The notes under the pieces: model-generated | Seen by the model: the letters and a program-made list of their open reading frames with translations, nothing else | Told to the model about the DNA's origin: nothing | Database searches by the model: none | DNA from: an uncultured cyanobacterium | GTDB lineage: Bacteria > Cyanobacteriota > Cyanobacteriia > CACIAM-69d | Length of the DNA stretch: 40,384 nt | Reading direction: 5' to 3' | NCBI GenBank assembly: GCA_937883785.1 | Contig: CALGDE010000152.1 | Location: 1 to 40,384, forward strand | Made by a program: the position numbers and the translations under genes | Shown: piece by piece, positions 1 to 7,798 of the stretch | How positions within the stretch are numbered: the stretch's first letter is position 1 | Layout: every line of letters starts with the position of its first letter

Positions 1-2746
1 TACCGTCGGGGCTGAAATTCGCGCTCCAAACCCCGTTGGAATGACCCTTCAGGGTATTGCGGGTGCAAATCTGGCGCAAAATTTCGTTAGTGGCATAAAT
101 CGGCTCAGTGGTGGGATAGTCCCCCAAAGGCGCACCCCTCACCACAGATTTCAGTTGACTGGTTGCATGGGTCACCCCCAGCAGTGCCTCTAGCTCCTCA
201 TGGATAGCAAACTGTCGCAAACTAAAACGACAGTCTTTTTCTAAACGGGTAATATCTTTCGCCAGCTTCAGCTCATGGTCTGCCCGCTGCAATTCACCCT
301 TAGCAACAGCAATCCTCGACTCCAACTGCGCCAAACTTGCCTGAGCCAACTGACGAGCTTCCCGCTCCCTTGCCAACTCGCCCTGTAATGTTGTCCCCTG
401 GGTTTTTCGCACAAACTCAGCAACGTAATCGTGCACCAGTCGAAAATGGTCCTCTAACTGCGGGTCAGTCACCACCAAATCCGACGCCACCAAAATCTCC
501 AGCACCAACCCAAGCTGCTCCGTCTCCCTCCCCAACTGCGCCAGCTCTGCCGCCAACTCCTGCCGCGACTTCACCGGCCGCCCCTGCCCCTCATCGGTCA
601 ATAAAAACAACACCACCTGCGCCAGCTCCCGCCCCGGACCGCAAGCCTCCACAATCTCATCCACATACCCCTGCACCAACACATCCTTCGACGCCCCCTC
701 AAGCTGCTCATACCCCGCCAAATCCCGAATCCCCAGCGTCTCCAGCCGCGCCCCCACAATCTGTAGCTCAATGGGACGCACCACCCCCAACTCCGCCGCC
801 AAATCATCCACCACCCGCCGCCGCAACCCCTCCTCCATCTGGGGAGCCAACCGCTGCCACATCCGCTCTGCCCGCTCCGGCGACAAATTCCCCAACTCAT
901 AGAGCACCCGCCGCCCCAAAATATCCCCCCCGATCGCCCCCATCGACGGCATCTGATTACAGGGCAACAGCAAATGCAAATAATCGGAGCGTAACGACAA
1001 AACCACCGTCAACGCCCCCAAATCCGGGTCCCCAAACACCCCACCCAACACCTCAAAAAACTGGCGTTGTTTCACCGGGTCTGGGTTAGCAAAGAAAAAC
1101 TCCTCAAACTGGTCCAACACCACCACAATTTCCCGATGCTTCCCAGCCAATGCCCGCAAATCCGCCCCAATCGCCTCCGCATCATCCACCTCCTCCCCAC
1201 AAGGCTCCACCCCCAACTTCTTCAGCGACTTACCAATTTCCCGCCGTAAATCCCGCGCCCAATGGTCATACTGACGCAAATCAATAGCAACCCCAACCCG
1301 CCCCTCCTCAAACGCCACCCGAGGAATCCGAGGCAACAACCCCGCATTCACCAACGAACTTTTTCCCACCCCCGACGCCCCACACAGCACCACCAGCTTC
1401 GTATCATTGCCGCGAATTTTATTAATAATCGCCTCTAAATCCTCAGCCCGCCCCGAAAACTCAATCTCCGGCGGCACCACCTCCGAACCCCCATCCACCC
1501 GCAACGGCACCAACCGCGCCACCCCAATAAATGATCGCAGCCCATACTCCCGCTCCACCCGCTGCCGCCGCCGCCCAACCTCAAACGCCTTCAGATAATT
1601 CTGTTTATCTTCTCGAAAGATCGTTTCCAAGCGTTCCATCCTGTTCAACGCCAACTGCGGAAAACAAAGTGGATCGATCGACGCATTGAACGCTAAAGAT
1701 GCAATCTCTCGATCTAAATCTTCTTTTACCTGTTTTTCCAAAGTTATTAAGCCGGTATACATCAAGGTGTAGGTTTTCCAGCGTCCGCCAGAAGTTGGAA
1801 TCGGCGAGGGTCCATCACATAGCTTCCATAGATTTGCTGCAGCCGAAAAACAGTCTCTAACCTCAGTCAAAGTGCCCCTCAAATCTGAGACTTTTGACTT
1901 TTTAAAGAGCTCTTCCAGTTGCAAAAGCTTGGCAATTCCCCGATGCCAATCAACCCATCCCAACCAATTTTCAAACCCCGCAATCCCCCGCAACCCATCC
2001 CGTGCTTGATCCAACGTTTCCAACACCCCACCCGGTCCATCAACATGTAACCCCAACCGTCCCCGCCCAAACACAACCCCCGCTTCCAACTCCGGCTCAA
2101 CCTCAACCCCCGCCTCAATCAACCGGTCATAAGCCCCCATCAACTCCTGCCATTCCCCATCAGAAACAGCAGATTCCAACCGAAGAATAACCGCCTCATC
2201 GGCAGTGTTACTTAAACACTCAAACACCCGCTCCAAACCCAACCTTAAATCAGCCTTATAATCCTGCAACTCCGTTTGAAAACGCTTCGACGTTGCCCAA
2301 CTATGTAAATCATTGGCAACCGTCACCATCCGCCCTAAAGAATCTTGATTAAGCCATAGGATGACAGGCAAGTTAAAAATATCGGGGAGGCGATCGCGAG
2401 ATTGATTGAGGGGCACCCAAAACTCATCAATATCCTCCAGTTGGCTAATCCCCACCACCTGCAACGCATCTAATTCCTGAGCGTTATTCTCCCAAAACCC
2501 AATAAAATCATTAGCCGCAAAATCCACCGTTCTCAGGTCAATCGTGCCCACATTTAAGGATTTCTCAGCGCGGCATAAATCGATTAGTTTTTCACTCCAG
2601 CGATCGCACCCGTTAGAGCTTTCGGTGATCGCCAAAGTCAATTTAAATCTGCCTTGAAAAATACCAATTGAGTTTACTAATTGTCCCAAGACTTTATTGT
2701 TTCTAGCGACAAAATCCTCATAATTTATTGGGGCACTAGTAATCAC
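1..2746 (-). CDS. STAND-family NTPase with C-terminal WD40 repeats (partial, runs off left edge)
   Basis: Reading the minus strand from GTG at 2746 gives an uninterrupted frame of at least 915 codons that leaves the window at base 1. A GGAGG motif lies 10 nt before the GTG, and the GTG overlaps the TGA of the upstream ATPase gene by 4 nt (GTGA), so the start is well supported and translation is probably coupled. Residues about 1-440 form an alpha/beta region with LNQSRDRLP, a VILWLN strand and DLHSWA, which resembles a degenerate STAND module. Residues 456-463 are a Walker A (GASGVGKS). A Walker B with LDQFEEFFF sits near 540-550, typical of nSTAND1 proteins. A heptad-like charged stretch follows, and from about residue 890 a WD40 blade begins (LKGHSNGVWSANFSPDG). 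STAND proteins act as ligand-triggered oligomeric switches in signalling or immunity. The ligand and effector are not visible here. The fold call is firm and the biological role is inferred. Confidence 0.85.
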   Translation of the reverse strand, partial: MITSAPINYEDFVARNNKVLGQLVNSIGIFQGRFKLTLAITESSNGCDRWSEKLIDLCRAEKSLNVGTIDLRTVDFAANDFIGFWENNAQELDALQVVGISQLEDIDEFWVPLNQSRDRLPDIFNLPVILWLNQDSLGRMVTVANDLHSWATSKRFQTELQDYKADLRLGLERVFECLSNTADEAVILRLESAVSDGEWQELMGAYDRLIEAGVEVEPELEAGVVFGRGRLGLHVDGPGGVLETLDQARDGLRGIAGFENWLGWVDWHRGIAKLLQLEELFKKSKVSDLRGTLTEVRDCFSAAANLWKLCDGPSPIPTSGGRWKTYTLMYTGLITLEKQVKEDLDREIASLAFNASIDPLCFPQLALNRMERLETIFREDKQNYLKAFEVGRRRQRVEREYGLRSFIGVARLVPLRVDGGSEVVPPEIEFSGRAEDLEAIINKIRGNDTKLVVLCGASGVGKSSLVNAGLLPRIPRVAFEEGRVGVAIDLRQYDHWARDLRREIGKSLKKLGVEPCGEEVDDAEAIGADLRALAGKHREIVVVLDQFEEFFFANPDPVKQRQFFEVLGGVFGDPDLGALTVVLSLRSDYLHLLLPCNQMPSMGAIGGDILGRRVLYELGNLSPERAERMWQRLAPQMEEGLRRRVVDDLAAELGVVRPIELQIVGARLETLGIRDLAGYEQLEGASKDVLVQGYVDEIVEACGPGRELAQVVLFLLTDEGQGRPVKSRQELAAELAQLGRETEQLGLVLEILVASDLVVTDPQLEDHFRLVHDYVAEFVRKTQGTTLQGELAREREARQLAQASLAQLESRIAVAKGELQRADHELKLAKDITRLEKDCRFSLRQFAIHEELEALLGVTHATSQLKSVVRGAPLGDYPTTEPIYATNEILRQICTRNTLKGHSNGVWSANFSPDG

Positions 2747-4101
2747 AGTTTGTCCCCCTCCAAAAGAATTGGATTGACATCGAACCAAGTCCTTTTACTG
2801 TAGCTATATTCAAATACCTTTTGGGTGCGAATTAGCTTTTGGTACTGCAACTCTTCACTCACTTCCTTCGATCTATGCACTCGCCTTAGTAATGCCCATT
2901 CCTCCTCTGAAATCCTGAACTGCATCTCCCGTGCTTCTTCACCAATTACTTCTTCTAAAGACTCCTTCGTCAAGGGCAGCAGCATCTCCTCTTCTGCCCA
3001 CTGTAGTAACAGTCTAAATAACCCTCGAATATGCCCGCCACTTACGCGACAAACTCGTTCAAGCAATTCTTCGCTCTCAAAAATGTTCAAAGCCTGGTCC
3101 ACTCGTTCTTCCTCAGACAAACCTGGTAGTACCCGAGCGAAAACCATTTGCTTTAACTTTTCAATGCCTTCCGTAAGAACATCCCCGTCTGGGGTCATTG
3201 TCGGCACCATTGGCAAACACTCTGGCTTGAAAGAAAATCGATTCTTTAATCCGCCAAAATCGCCAGAAAACCGTAACCTCAGGGGCATCGTATACACCGT
3301 GTGGCAATCTAATGAAGCGAGGTCTTCTGCCTTGTCGATAAATAATAGTTCTTGACTTGACCTCCCAGAAGCTAATGATCGATTATCAATCCGATCTAAA
3401 TTGTCAATTATTATTGTTAATCCTCGATAGCCCATCACCTTTAATTGTTCAATTCCAGGGCGAATTAAGTCCTTGTTTATACCTTCAATTAGCGGAGTCA
3501 ACTGCGGTGTCACATAATCGTTGAGCCGTGTTCTCCATTTAGGATCATTCTTTGCCCTCATCGTTAGATCCCCAAATATCGTTGATAGCTTTAACTCTTT
3601 CTTTGCTGAGTCTATCGCTACTTTTTGTCCCACTATTTCGGCTTGGGCCTCAACTGTAAACTCTGTAAATAAAGTATCTCGAAAATCTAAAACGAGCTGC
3701 TGTAACTTGCCTGACACTGGAGAGATTTCTTTCTCTAATGATCGCGCAACTTGCCCCGCAATAACAAACAGAACACCGGCGATGGAAATATCTGACTTAT
3801 CTAGGTAATCGTCTCCCTTGAAGTAGATAACAAAGAATTTATCGTTCTCCAGCTCCTTTTTTAAGCGCAAAAGTTCTGTCGATTTCCCGCAGCCAACATG
3901 TCCCATGAACAATGAGCAAGTACGCTTATCGCCATAGGTGATAATCCGATTTTTAAGCTTTCGGATCATTTTGTCGCCACGGATCGGAGTGAAATCGACG
4001 TAGCATAGACGATCATTTTTATCTCCATAGTTCAGCGTCCTTTGGGGATCAATCGCTATGCAAAAATCAGCGTAATTAACAGTTGGGCGATCGCCTGCCA
4101 T
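2743..4101 (-). CDS. P-loop ATPase, STAND-operon partner
   Basis: A 452-residue protein with a Walker A at 67-74 (GHVGCGKS) and a Walker B at about 229-238 (TIIIDNLDRI). The D-N-L-D-R arrangement resembles KAP/STAND/Orc1-like P-loop ATPases. The C-terminal third is helical and charged (around 330-452) and may be a lid plus winged-helix region. No membrane segment is seen. ATG at 4101 is the only start in this frame near AGGAG, although the spacing of about 16 nt is long. The stop overlaps the start of the large WD40 STAND gene by 4 nt, so the two products are probably made together and act together. It is divergent from the cyclase pair. The ATPase call is firm. A role in sensing or defence is inferred from the partner only. 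Confidence 0.8.
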   Translation of the reverse strand: MAGDRPTVNYADFCIAIDPQRTLNYGDKNDRLCYVDFTPIRGDKMIRKLKNRIITYGDKRTCSLFMGHVGCGKSTELLRLKKELENDKFFVIYFKGDDYLDKSDISIAGVLFVIAGQVARSLEKEISPVSGKLQQLVLDFRDTLFTEFTVEAQAEIVGQKVAIDSAKKELKLSTIFGDLTMRAKNDPKWRTRLNDYVTPQLTPLIEGINKDLIRPGIEQLKVMGYRGLTIIIDNLDRIDNRSLASGRSSQELLFIDKAEDLASLDCHTVYTMPLRLRFSGDFGGLKNRFSFKPECLPMVPTMTPDGDVLTEGIEKLKQMVFARVLPGLSEEERVDQALNIFESEELLERVCRVSGGHIRGLFRLLLQWAEEEMLLPLTKESLEEVIGEEAREMQFRISEEEWALLRRVHRSKEVSEELQYQKLIRTQKVFEYSYSKRTWFDVNPILLEGDKL

Positions 4102-4248
4102 ATGCGCACCAAAATTTCTCCTATCTTAGCCAGCCCTATTTGCTACGCCAGCCAATTATTAAGCCCCTGAACTGCTCAGGTTATGACTGTGGTGGGTTTG
4201 GGCGATCGCCAATCAACTGATCGCCAATCAGCAATCAAAGTGGTGACC
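4102..4248. promoter_or_regulatory. Divergent intergenic region between STAND operon and cyclase pair
   Basis: This 147-bp stretch must carry promoters for both the leftward ATPase/STAND operon and the rightward cyclase pair. It contains one HIP1-like site and two nearby TCGCCAATCA copies (about 4204-4230). An upstream ATG at 4183 would add 22 residues to the first cyclase. The paralogous downstream cyclase has no counterpart to those residues, so this stretch is read here as leader. No clear -10/-35 pair was identified. Confidence 0.35.
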
Positions 4249-6015
4249 ATGGAGCAAAAGCCGCAGCAACAGATTTCTATTGGCGTCAAAATTTTCGGCA
4301 TTGCGGTCAGTATGCTCGGGCTGTTGCTGGTGGTGGTGTATGTGTCCTCCAATCGGCTGCGGCGGGTCAGCGAAGAAATTGGCGATATGGCGGACTACAT
4401 TATTCCCCTGACCAATCGGGTGGCGGCGGTGGATATCCATGCCCTGGAGCAGGAGGTGCTGTTTGAGCGGATGCTAAAGCATTACGAAATTGAGCCCGTT
4501 GACGAGAAGCTAATTGCCGAGGAGTTGGCGGAATTTGGCGATCGCAGCGAGGAAGTGGAGCGGGAATTTAAGGAAATTGATGAGCTGGCGCAGAAGGCGT
4601 TGAATCATATTTCAGATGGGGAAACGCGGGAGGGGCTAGCGGAATTGCTGAAGCAGTTAAAGGCGGTAGAGGAAGAGCATGGGCGGTTCCAGGGTCAGGC
4701 AAATGAAATTATCGACCTGCTAGAAGGTGGAGAGGATGTTGATAAGGCGGAGCTAACGCGGCGGGAAAAAGAGCTGGCGATCGAAGAGGCGAAATTTAAT
4801 GAAGGTATTGAACGAATTCTGCTGGATTTTGAGGAATTCACAGTGGCGGCGGCTCAGCGAGGACAGTCCCACCAAGCAACGGTGCAGCAGCTCAGTGTTT
4901 CTATCTCGGTGCTGGCAACGGTAATTGGTGCGGTGTTTGCCTGGTTTGTAACTTTGGGGCTGGTACGTCCGGTACGGCAGTTAACTAACAAAATGGGGGA
5001 GCTTCAGGAAGGAGATTTTACGGTGCAGGCACAAACGTCGAGCCGAGATGAGCTGGCAACGTTGGCGGCATCCTTTAACCATATGGTGGGCGAACTAAAG
5101 CTAAAGGCGGCGCTGGAAGAAACCTTTGGCAAATACGTGGATCGTCGGGTGGTGGAGCGATTATTGACCGATGCTACGGAGGCGACAACGGAGGGCGATC
5201 GCCAGGTGATGACGGTGGGGTTTGCCGATGTGGTGGGCTTGGGAAAGGTGCTGGAAAATTTGCCGCCTCAGCAGCGCGTGGAGCTAGCCAATAAATATTT
5301 CACCCTGCTGGCAGCTCCCGTTACCGAACAGTTGGGTACCTTGGATAAATTTATTGGCACAACGGTGATGGCGTTTTGGGGACCGCCCTTTTCCGGGGAA
5401 GATGACCACGGAGAGCTGGCCTGTGCGGCGGCGTTGGCGCAGCGATCGCGGCTAGACACCATTACGGAATGGGCGCGATCGTACTCGTCCCAATCGGGCG
5501 ATCAAACCTTGGCGGTAAAACTGCCCAAGCTGCAACTGTGCATCGGTTTATCCACTGGTTCTCTTGTGGTGGGAAATATCGGCTCAGAAACCGCAAAGTC
5601 CTACACGGTGATGGGAGACACGGTAAACACGGCGTCGCGACTGAAGGGAGTCAGCAAGCAGTACGGCGTTGAAATTGTGCTGGTGGATGCCACCGTGGCG
5701 ATGTTGAGCGATCGCTTTATTACCCGTGAACTGGATTTACTCCAGGTGGTGGGCAAGGATGAGCCGGTGCGGGTTTATGAGCTGGTGGGAGAAGCGGGGG
5801 CGGTGGAGCGATCGCATCTGGAACGCTGCGAAACCTTTGCTACTGGTCTAGCCGCCTACCGCAAACAAGATTGGACCCAAGCGCAGGCTGCCTTTGAAAA
5901 GTGCCAGGAAGAAGGCGATCCACCGGCTCAGCTTTATTTGGACCGAATCGCTACCCTCAAACAAAATCCGCCGCCAGAGGATTGGGATGGAGTTTGGCGT
6001 TTAACCCGTAAGTAA
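4249..6015 (+). CDS. Membrane class III adenylyl cyclase paralogue, C2-like (second metal Asp missing)
   Basis: With ATG 4249 the protein has 588 residues: a transmembrane helix near 12-32, a helical extracytoplasmic sensor of about 180 residues, a second membrane helix near 215-237, a HAMP domain, a class III cyclase domain (about 315-500), and a C-terminal TPR-like tail ending in PPPEDWDGVW. The start at 4249 is chosen because its N-terminus aligns with the next gene; ATG 4183 is the alternative. In the catalytic domain the first metal Asp is present (FAD, D327), but the second is replaced by Thr (KFIGT, T371). Adenine-contact Lys367 and Thr453 and the transition-state Asn460 and Arg464 (TVNTASR) are retained. 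In the family, both Asps on one subunit bind the two metals while Asn/Arg come from the other subunit. As a homodimer this protein should be poorly active. It lies 55 bp upstream of a paralogue with the opposite losses. Confidence 0.9.
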   Translation: MEQKPQQQISIGVKIFGIAVSMLGLLLVVVYVSSNRLRRVSEEIGDMADYIIPLTNRVAAVDIHALEQEVLFERMLKHYEIEPVDEKLIAEELAEFGDRSEEVEREFKEIDELAQKALNHISDGETREGLAELLKQLKAVEEEHGRFQGQANEIIDLLEGGEDVDKAELTRREKELAIEEAKFNEGIERILLDFEEFTVAAAQRGQSHQATVQQLSVSISVLATVIGAVFAWFVTLGLVRPVRQLTNKMGELQEGDFTVQAQTSSRDELATLAASFNHMVGELKLKAALEETFGKYVDRRVVERLLTDATEATTEGDRQVMTVGFADVVGLGKVLENLPPQQRVELANKYFTLLAAPVTEQLGTLDKFIGTTVMAFWGPPFSGEDDHGELACAAALAQRSRLDTITEWARSYSSQSGDQTLAVKLPKLQLCIGLSTGSLVVGNIGSETAKSYTVMGDTVNTASRLKGVSKQYGVEIVLVDATVAMLSDRFITRELDLLQVVGKDEPVRVYELVGEAGAVERSHLERCETFATGLAAYRKQDWTQAQAAFEKCQEEGDPPAQLYLDRIATLKQNPPPEDWDGVWRLTRK

Positions 6016-6070
6016 CGCGATCAGTTTCATTCAATATCTCCTCAGTAATTTCATTGGTGGTCGGTGAGTT

Positions 6071-7798
6071 ATGAAATCATTTTCCATTCCCATTAGTGTC
6101 AAAATCTTCAGTATTTCTGGCAGTATGCTGGCAATTTTACTGACCGTTGCCTACGTTAACCACCGCAATATTTCACGGGTCAACCAGGAACTTTCTGATC
6201 TGGCAAATTATCTAACCAAGCTGACAGAAAATGTGGCAATTATGAATGTCCATTCTCTAGAGCAGGAAATTCATTATGAGCGAGCTGTTCGTATTTTGGA
6301 GACAGAACCGGTGGATGAAAGCGCCTTAGCAAAAGAGCTGGAAGAGTTTGAAGAGCGCGGGGAGCTAGTGGATAAGGAATTAAAAATCGCTGTTAATTTA
6401 GCCCACGGGGCTATTAAAGATGCCCAGGAAGTTAAGGATCAAATTGAGTTTGCTCGCATTGAACCGCTGTTAAAAATTTTGGAGCAGGATCATCAAGAGT
6501 TTCATGATCGCGGCATCGAAGTGATTAATTTACTGAAGGCGGGCGATCGCGATGCAGCTCGCTTACTAGATAAACAGCTAGAACACTTCGAAGACACTTT
6601 TGAATCACGAATTCGCGGCATTTTGTTTGAGCTGGGTGAGTTTACCGCAGTGGCAGCCCGTTCCGCCCAGGAGCATGAAAATGAGGCGCTGGCATTTAGC
6701 TGGATTTTGGCAGCGATCGCCACGGGAGTCGGGCTAACCTTTGCATCGGTGGTGACCCTGGGGCTGGTGCGTCCCATTAAGCGGCTGGTGGAGGGCACCC
6801 AAAAAATTGAAGACGGTGAGCTCGGGATTGCGGTGCCCATCACTACGCGGGATGAGGTGGGGCAGCTTTCCACGGCGTTTAATCAGCTCGCGACGGATAT
6901 TCAAGAAAAGGAGCATATCAAAAGCACCTTTGGGCAGTACGTGGACCCGCGCATCGTGGAAACGCTGATTCAAAATCCTGGGGATGAGGCGATCGCCCGT
7001 CAGGAAGAAATGACCGTGTTTTTCTCCGATATGGCAGGGTTTAGCACTATCAGCGAAATGCTGACCCCCGCCGGTTTGGTGTCCCTAATTGACCGTTATT
7101 TAACCTTTGCATCGGAACCCATTAATGCCAATCGCGGCGTAATCGATAAATTTATTGGCGACGCGGTAACCGCTTTTTGGGGACCGCCGTTCGTAGGAGA
7201 AACAGAACACGCCAAGCTCGCCTGCTACGCCGCCCTGGAACAGCTCAGTCAGTTAACCAAGTTGCGTCGATTGCTGCCGGAAATTATGGGCATTCGTAAA
7301 GGATTGCCGGATATTCGCATTCGCGTTGGCTTAGCCACGGGCGACCTGGTGGCGGGCAATATCGGCTCAGAAACCCTAAAGTCCTACACCGTAATGGGAC
7401 CTGCCGTTCAAATTGCCGAATATTTGGAAGGTGCAAGCAAAAGCTACGGCACCACCATTTTGATGACCGACACCACCAAACAGGCTGCCGGGGACGGCAT
7501 CGCCACCCGCGAAATTGATCGCATCATTCTACCGGGGCAAACTCAGCCAACTCCAATCCACGAGCTGTTGGATATCGTCGGCAACCTTAGTGTGCAGCAG
7601 GAGTCACTGCGTCGCCACTTCACCGACGGCCTTAGCGCCTACTACGATCGCCATTGGGATAGCGCTGAGAAAAGTTTTAATGATGGAGCGGCGATCGCCC
7701 CCGACGACCAACCCACCCAGCTTTATCTCCAGCGCATTGCCCACTATCGCCAACATCCCCCCGCCGCTGATTGGGATGGGGTTTGGAGTGGCAGTTAG
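6071..7798 (+). CDS. Membrane class III adenylyl cyclase paralogue, C1-like (transition-state Asn/Arg missing)
   Basis: A 575-residue paralogue of the preceding gene with the same order: membrane helix near 8-28, helical extracytoplasmic domain, membrane helix near 205-230, HAMP, cyclase domain (about 308-490) and a tail ending PPAADWDGVW. Both metal-binding Asps are present (FSD, D320; KFIGD, D364), and so are the adenine-contact positions Lys360 and Thr440. The motif that normally reads GDTVNxASR is instead GPAVQIAEY, so the catalytic Asn is Gln447 and the transition-state Arg is Tyr451. That should abolish a homodimeric site but would allow a hybrid site with the upstream protein. The 55-bp gap and GGTGAG just before the ATG suggest co-transcription. 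Its TAG overlaps the end of the converging recF gene by 3 bases. Confidence 0.9.
   Translation: MKSFSIPISVKIFSISGSMLAILLTVAYVNHRNISRVNQELSDLANYLTKLTENVAIMNVHSLEQEIHYERAVRILETEPVDESALAKELEEFEERGELVDKELKIAVNLAHGAIKDAQEVKDQIEFARIEPLLKILEQDHQEFHDRGIEVINLLKAGDRDAARLLDKQLEHFEDTFESRIRGILFELGEFTAVAARSAQEHENEALAFSWILAAIATGVGLTFASVVTLGLVRPIKRLVEGTQKIEDGELGIAVPITTRDEVGQLSTAFNQLATDIQEKEHIKSTFGQYVDPRIVETLIQNPGDEAIARQEEMTVFFSDMAGFSTISEMLTPAGLVSLIDRYLTFASEPINANRGVIDKFIGDAVTAFWGPPFVGETEHAKLACYAALEQLSQLTKLRRLLPEIMGIRKGLPDIRIRVGLATGDLVAGNIGSETLKSYTVMGPAVQIAEYLEGASKSYGTTILMTDTTKQAAGDGIATREIDRIILPGQTQPTPIHELLDIVGNLSVQQESLRRHFTDGLSAYYDRHWDSAEKSFNDGAAIAPDDQPTQLYLQRIAHYRQHPPAADWDGVWSGS

Follow-up and report, generated by a model that had tools for sequence, protein, structure and literature searches.

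Two adjacent genes on a 40,384-nucleotide stretch of DNA from an uncultured cyanobacterium (hereafter the window) encode class III cyclases whose active sites are incomplete in complementary ways, which raises the question of whether the two proteins, A and B, could form a working enzyme only together. The preliminary description of this DNA had proposed that A and B pair into exactly one competent site while each homodimer is crippled, and comparison with related proteins, the evidence used here, supports that proposal. The two proteins very probably function only as a mixed pair, because complementary halves of the site have been lost and about a dozen other cyanobacteria share this division. 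It is highly likely that A and B are the subunits of a class III adenylyl cyclase that is membrane-bound, obligately heterodimeric and equipped with a single competent site; from the sequences we infer A-B dimerisation, cAMP as the product and inactive homodimers.

Both proteins displayed a common build, with a short N-terminus, a membrane helix, a helical periplasmic sensor of about 170 residues and a second membrane helix; HAMP, a linker helix and the class III cyclase domain come next, and the C-terminus is a helical tail, which carries WDGVW in A. The sensor lies between the two membrane-spanning stretches, at residues ~8-37 and 212-242 of A and ~5-30 and 206-234 of B. HAMP and Guanylate_cyc exceeded the Pfam cut-offs in both proteins (PF00211 scores of 51.1 and 49.1 bits for the two proteins, against a cut-off of 21.9) and were the only families to do so, with no haem-NO/oxygen-binding domain among the matches. 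Only three of eight family members matched the 4HB_MCP sensor family, and weakly. AlphaFold single-chain models of the full-length proteins were of modest confidence (mean pLDDT 67 for A and 76 for B), and matched the class III domain 3r5g with a TMt of 0.80 (A) and 0.88 (B). Top structure matches of the cyclase domains were CyaB, CyaC and photoactivated cyclases.

Co-transcription of A and B is likely, since the gap between them contained neither a promoter-like match on the + strand nor a terminator-like match. An alternative start of gene A (ATG 4183) would extend the protein to 610 aa. Many GCGATCGC octamers (HIP1), typical of cyanobacteria, were observed in window positions 4085-4220 and elsewhere, including inside the 22-codon N-terminal extension given by this alternative start. 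A divergent AAA-type ATPase-like gene with weak family matches (2743-4101, minus strand) adjoins the pair. In the whole window genome, 28 Guanylate_cyc matches were found in 4.84 Mb. Another of its class III cyclase genes (contig C119, 11500-17500, taken as locus L162; ORF L162:3477-5360, minus strand) is broken: an IS1-like transposase (L162:2721-3480) separates it from the remainder of its cyclase domain, which lies beyond the transposase.

The class III site lies at the dimer interface, where one chain brings the metal Asps and the other brings the base-specifying residues and the Asn/Arg pair (PMC3591389, PMC2576301, PMC4215837). All twelve residues named in the preliminary description were present at the numbers given there when checked residue by residue (Table 1), including T440 of B. 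Neither A nor B alone contains the metal, base and Asn/Arg residues that a homodimeric bacterial cyclase combines in a single chain, while the two together carry complementary half-sites on two subunits, as in a heterodimer of the sGC or C1/C2 kind. R418 of B, which by alignment we take to be equivalent to Arg484 of mammalian C1, has C431 (5539-5541) as its counterpart in A. The role of the Arg at this position has been described (PMC2576301).

Table 1. Genes of the cyclase pair and their active-site residues in the window
Feature	Position	Strand	Basis or conservation
Gene A, Asn/Arg-side subunit	4249..6015	+	ORF, Pfam, residues, TM prediction; 588 aa from ATG 4249
A D327, first metal Asp	5227..5229	+	kept here; Gln in orthologues G161, G351
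A K367, adenine-specifying Lys	5347..5349	+	kept 11/11
A T371 replacing second metal Asp	5359..5361	+	11/11 A have Thr
A T453, second base-specifying residue	5605..5607	+	kept 11/11
A N460 to R464, Asn/Arg catalytic pair	5626..5640	+	kept 11/11
Intergenic gap, A stop to B start	6016..6070	+	55 nt
Gene B, metal-side subunit	6071..7798	+	ORF, Pfam, residues, TM prediction; 575 aa
B D320, first metal Asp	7028..7030	+	kept in 12/12 B (G641 on contig C138)
B K360	7148..7150	+	kept here; Gln or Cys in 9/12 B
B D364, second metal Asp	7160..7162	+	kept 12/12 (G641 from contig C142)
B R418, metal-side triphosphate Arg	7322..7324	+	kept in every B read
B Q447 replacing catalytic Asn	7409..7411	+	residue alignment
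B Y451 replacing catalytic Arg	7421..7423	+	residue alignment

Genomes were searched for relatives using as queries full-length A, B and a sensor-region profile built from three pairs, which excludes ordinary cyclases. Partly overlapping draws of 96, 390, 391 and 386 genomes were used, roughly a thousand in all. The A-B family is rare at this scale: strong members were found in 13 cyanobacterial genomes belonging to several families (the window genome plus G015, G092, G161, G216, G329, G351, G390, G428, G429, G433, G623 and G641), several of them MAGs or fragmented assemblies. Ten loci (L080-L089) were left out as their match covers mainly the catalytic half, and weak sensor-profile matches in G326, G436-G440 and G013 led to no full A/B-family cyclase there. 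A scan of genome contigs with the single B protein returned no relatives, while an alignment query did. The plasmid search yielded no A/B pair; its full-length matches were from Rhizobium, and the two that were read are full-site, single-copy proteins.

Both subunits occurred in 12 of the 13 genomes, counting G433, where the middle of A and the start of B are missing and frame changes interrupt both genes. This locus (L127, contig C105 of G433) may reflect joint decay or poor assembly. The remaining genome, G216, carried a B-type gene alone, on a contig that stops 244 nt upstream of this gene, at the place expected for A. No clear case of an orthologue standing alone with the same substitutions was thus obtained. 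A and B were both readable at the diagnostic sites in 11 genomes, and the losses were complementary in all of these; B of G641 was readable only as two contig pieces.

The substitutions reported from the window were retained across orthologues, in which pairs of about 51-60% identity carry the same losses. All 11 A proteins displayed Thr, Lys, Thr, Asn and Arg at the positions of the second Asp, the base-specifying Lys and Thr, and the catalytic Asn and Arg, respectively. The first Asp was kept in nine and replaced by Gln (FAQ) in two (G161 and G351), so that an A homodimer there would have neither metal Asp, a state resembling that of mammalian C2. In B, both metal Asps were kept in 12 of 12 proteins, while the Asn was lost in every one (Gln, Arg, His or Glu instead) and the Arg in 11 (Tyr, His, Thr, Lys, Gln or Asp), G623 alone keeping it. 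The base Lys was also lost in nine B proteins, and a Ser-to-Glu change adjoining the lost Arg was fixed in all B proteins compared. The half-site that its partner would not need from B has thus drifted through many residues, while the half that B would have to supply has stayed fixed.

Such losses are not due to chance, since they recur in orthologous pairs and other cyclases lack them. Both Asps and the Arg were present in all of 84 other distinct cyclases compared, and the Asn in 79, the remaining five having Asp at the Asn position. Five cyanobacterial cyclases with Asp for the catalytic Asn (DDKTDR; L038, L040, L042, L050 and L051) represent a different variant. The metal-side triphosphate Arg followed the same split, with His or Cys at this position in 10 of the 11 A proteins and Arg (four) or Lys (one) in five canonical outgroups, but it is weaker evidence and not diagnostic alone because many other cyclases have Gly there. 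One similarity noted at first held in part: the two window proteins have the same tail, but among orthologues WDGxW is present in every A and lost in 10 of 12 B.

Two observations were set aside. At its end, contig C138 of G641 reads Ala at the second Asp of B, an apparent exception; contig C142 of that genome covers the stretch too and has QFIGDAV and QIAEY, so that the conflicting C138 reading is most simply explained as an assembly artefact of the contig end. A Lys of the beta7-beta8 loop, present as GK in all 11 A proteins and mostly absent from B, was considered as a further split residue and excluded as evidence because the Rhizobium outgroups also lack it.

The maximum-likelihood tree grouped all A proteins (support 99/97) and all B proteins (100/99) in two sister clades (97/92), relative to Leptospiraceae and Rhizobium cyclases that share their architecture, are single-copy and have full sites. 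One change on the tree accounted for each of the two losses, that of the second Asp in A and that of the Asn in B. A and B thus derive from one duplication of a full-site single-copy cyclase followed by opposite losses, in agreement with the origin by subfunctionalisation suggested in the preliminary description. Distances among A proteins mirrored those among B proteins (r = 0.978, Mantel p = 0.0001). Both genes displayed dN/dS of 0.10-0.18 between close genomes (NG86), that is, purifying selection, which indicates that neither is a pseudogene outside G433. Joint retention, mirrored trees and selection are what an obligate pair would predict; two independently decaying copies predict otherwise.

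The order of the genes was A-B in eight genomes (window, G015, G092, G161, G329, G351, G428 and G641) and B-A in G623, while A and B stood apart in G390 (Symploca SIO1C2) and G429, with other genes between or beside them. Both genes were therefore retained despite being unlinked (Symploca G390) or reversed (G623). The genes flanking A and B differ between genomes, so linkage within a shared neighbourhood fails to explain their joint retention. Related ORFs were found beside or between A and B at L122, L125 and L126 (G390 and G429, Symploca relatives), placed as though inserts had split a tandem pair; one of them starts MESNKLASILEGLIALPQEIEWVEFKQNN, and others resemble Uma2 and DUF3800 proteins. 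The G623 pair (L142:3693-7183) is early-branching, with reversed order and overlapping open frames, and there A retains the triphosphate Arg and B the catalytic Arg. This pair is possibly an evolutionary intermediate.

Taken as a mechanism, an ordinary homodimeric cyclase would have been duplicated and its copies would have undergone opposite losses. B would give both metal-binding Asps, and A the adenine-specifying Lys and Thr (K367 and T453) and the transition-state Asn and Arg (N460 and R464), so that each A-B dimer would have a single competent ATP site. The pseudo-symmetric second site, formed by the Thr side of A and the Gln/Tyr side of B, would not catalyse, although the first Asp, retained in the majority of A proteins, makes weak residual metal binding there conceivable. 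An A-A dimer would have no second metal Asp, and a B-B dimer no Asn/Arg. Signals would pass from two related, non-identical periplasmic helical sensors through two HAMP domains and a coiled-coil linker to the catalytic dimer. The dead site may itself be under constraint, since Thr is fixed in all A and the Ser-to-Glu change in all B compared; speculatively, it may have a regulatory role comparable to that of the pocket in C1/C2.

The nucleotide used is predicted from A. Its base-specifying residues, K367 and T453, stand on the subunit with Asn and Arg and were Lys and Thr in 11 of 11 proteins, as expected of adenylyl cyclases (Lys with Asp or Thr); Lys with Thr was also the commonest such pair among the other cyclases compared. 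Guanylyl cyclases have base-specifying residues of the Glu and Cys type, unlike those of A. This is consistent with ATP use and no proof of it. An A-B heterodimer that produces cGMP or takes another nucleotide is quite unlikely: Thr does occur at the second base position of some guanylyl as well as adenylyl cyclases (PMC4215837), but the first position is Lys in all A proteins, and few prokaryotic class III guanylyl cyclases are known (PMC1435932).

Other readings of the pair concern whether it acts as one enzyme at all. Since each protein alone lacks essential residues, the two could be pseudo-cyclases without catalysis, retained for nucleotide binding or as scaffolds. This is highly improbable, as independent decay would not preserve one half-site per clade while the complementary half drifts, and the intact halves (Lys, Thr, Asn and Arg in 11 of 11 A, metal Asps in 12 of 12 B) as well as the low dN/dS of both genes speak against it. 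With 28 Guanylate_cyc matches in the window genome, and cross-dimerisation of class III cyclases possible in principle, A and B might also each modulate other, complete cyclases of the cell instead of pairing together. This is just as improbable in view of their co-occurrence and co-evolution and of their likeness in sensor, HAMP and linker (36-47% identity within a genome); the other same-genome cyclase matches of A start only around HAMP or the linker. Finally, A or B could be active alone via unusual residues, the heterodimer being merely facultative. Ma1120 of M. avium is active with Ala for Asn, so that loss of the Asn alone need not kill a cyclase (PMC4215837), and the early-branching B of G623 lacks Asn and Lys yet keeps Arg. 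However, both Asn and Arg are gone in 11 of 12 B proteins, the base Lys in nine, and the second metal Asp is found in no A, which leaves independent activity very unlikely and the obligate heterodimer of A and B as the preferred reading.

Bacterial class III cyclases have been reviewed as homodimers in which each monomer has an equal share in two sites; the same review states that fused dimers are not known from bacteria and asks what benefit the duplicated eukaryotic form brings (PMC9552081). Homodimeric Rv1625c, CyaC and CyaB share the catalytic-domain fold and motifs with A and B but form two equal sites (PMC9552081), while in the pair the full site is split between paralogues. Cyanobacterial cyclases of the CyaC type respond to bicarbonate (PMC4284465). 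No earlier description of a bacterial heterodimeric class III cyclase was found in the open-access literature searched; the mixed-pair arrangement, well known in animals, thus seems new for bacteria within that literature.

One of the closest parallels is soluble guanylyl cyclase (sGC) of animals, where metal and Arg roles are likewise divided between two genes: the metal Asps D486 and D530 come from alpha and Arg552 from beta, the site cannot be restored in either homodimer, and the heterodimer has one active and one pseudo-symmetric site (PMC3591389). In structure searches, the model of A matched chain B of human sGC entries (8hbh_B and 4ni2_B) and the model of B matched chain A (8hbf_A), chain A of 4ni2 being alpha by name. 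sGC is eukaryotic and cytosolic, with haem-NO domains and guanylyl specificity, whereas the A/B pair is bacterial and membrane-bound, with HAMP and Lys/Thr base residues and without a haem-NO domain. Mammalian membrane adenylyl cyclases divide the roles in the same way as A and B, with metals on one domain (C1) and base residues and Asn/Arg on the other (C2), and have one catalytic and one dead site as proposed for A/B; they are single chains with two six-helix cassettes, while A and B are two genes with two transmembrane stretches each. The chytrid NeoR/RGC rhodopsin cyclases are also obligate heterodimers of paralogous membrane sensor-cyclases (PMC8815786), but RGC1 and RGC2 are fungal, have rhodopsin sensors, make cGMP and keep all known catalytic residues, so the basis of heterodimerisation lies elsewhere there. 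Against this background, A and B likely represent a prokaryotic obligate two-gene heterodimer, arisen by duplication and complementary loss independently of sGC and C1/C2, with two diverged sensors acting on a single active site and a dead site that is conserved and possibly regulatory. If so, the solution of C1/C2 and sGC would have evolved convergently, and the pair would offer a small natural heterodimeric sensor-cyclase with two separately swappable inputs. A family with split roles, together with its full-site single-copy relatives and the G623 pair, makes the advantage of duplication, as asked in the review, directly testable.
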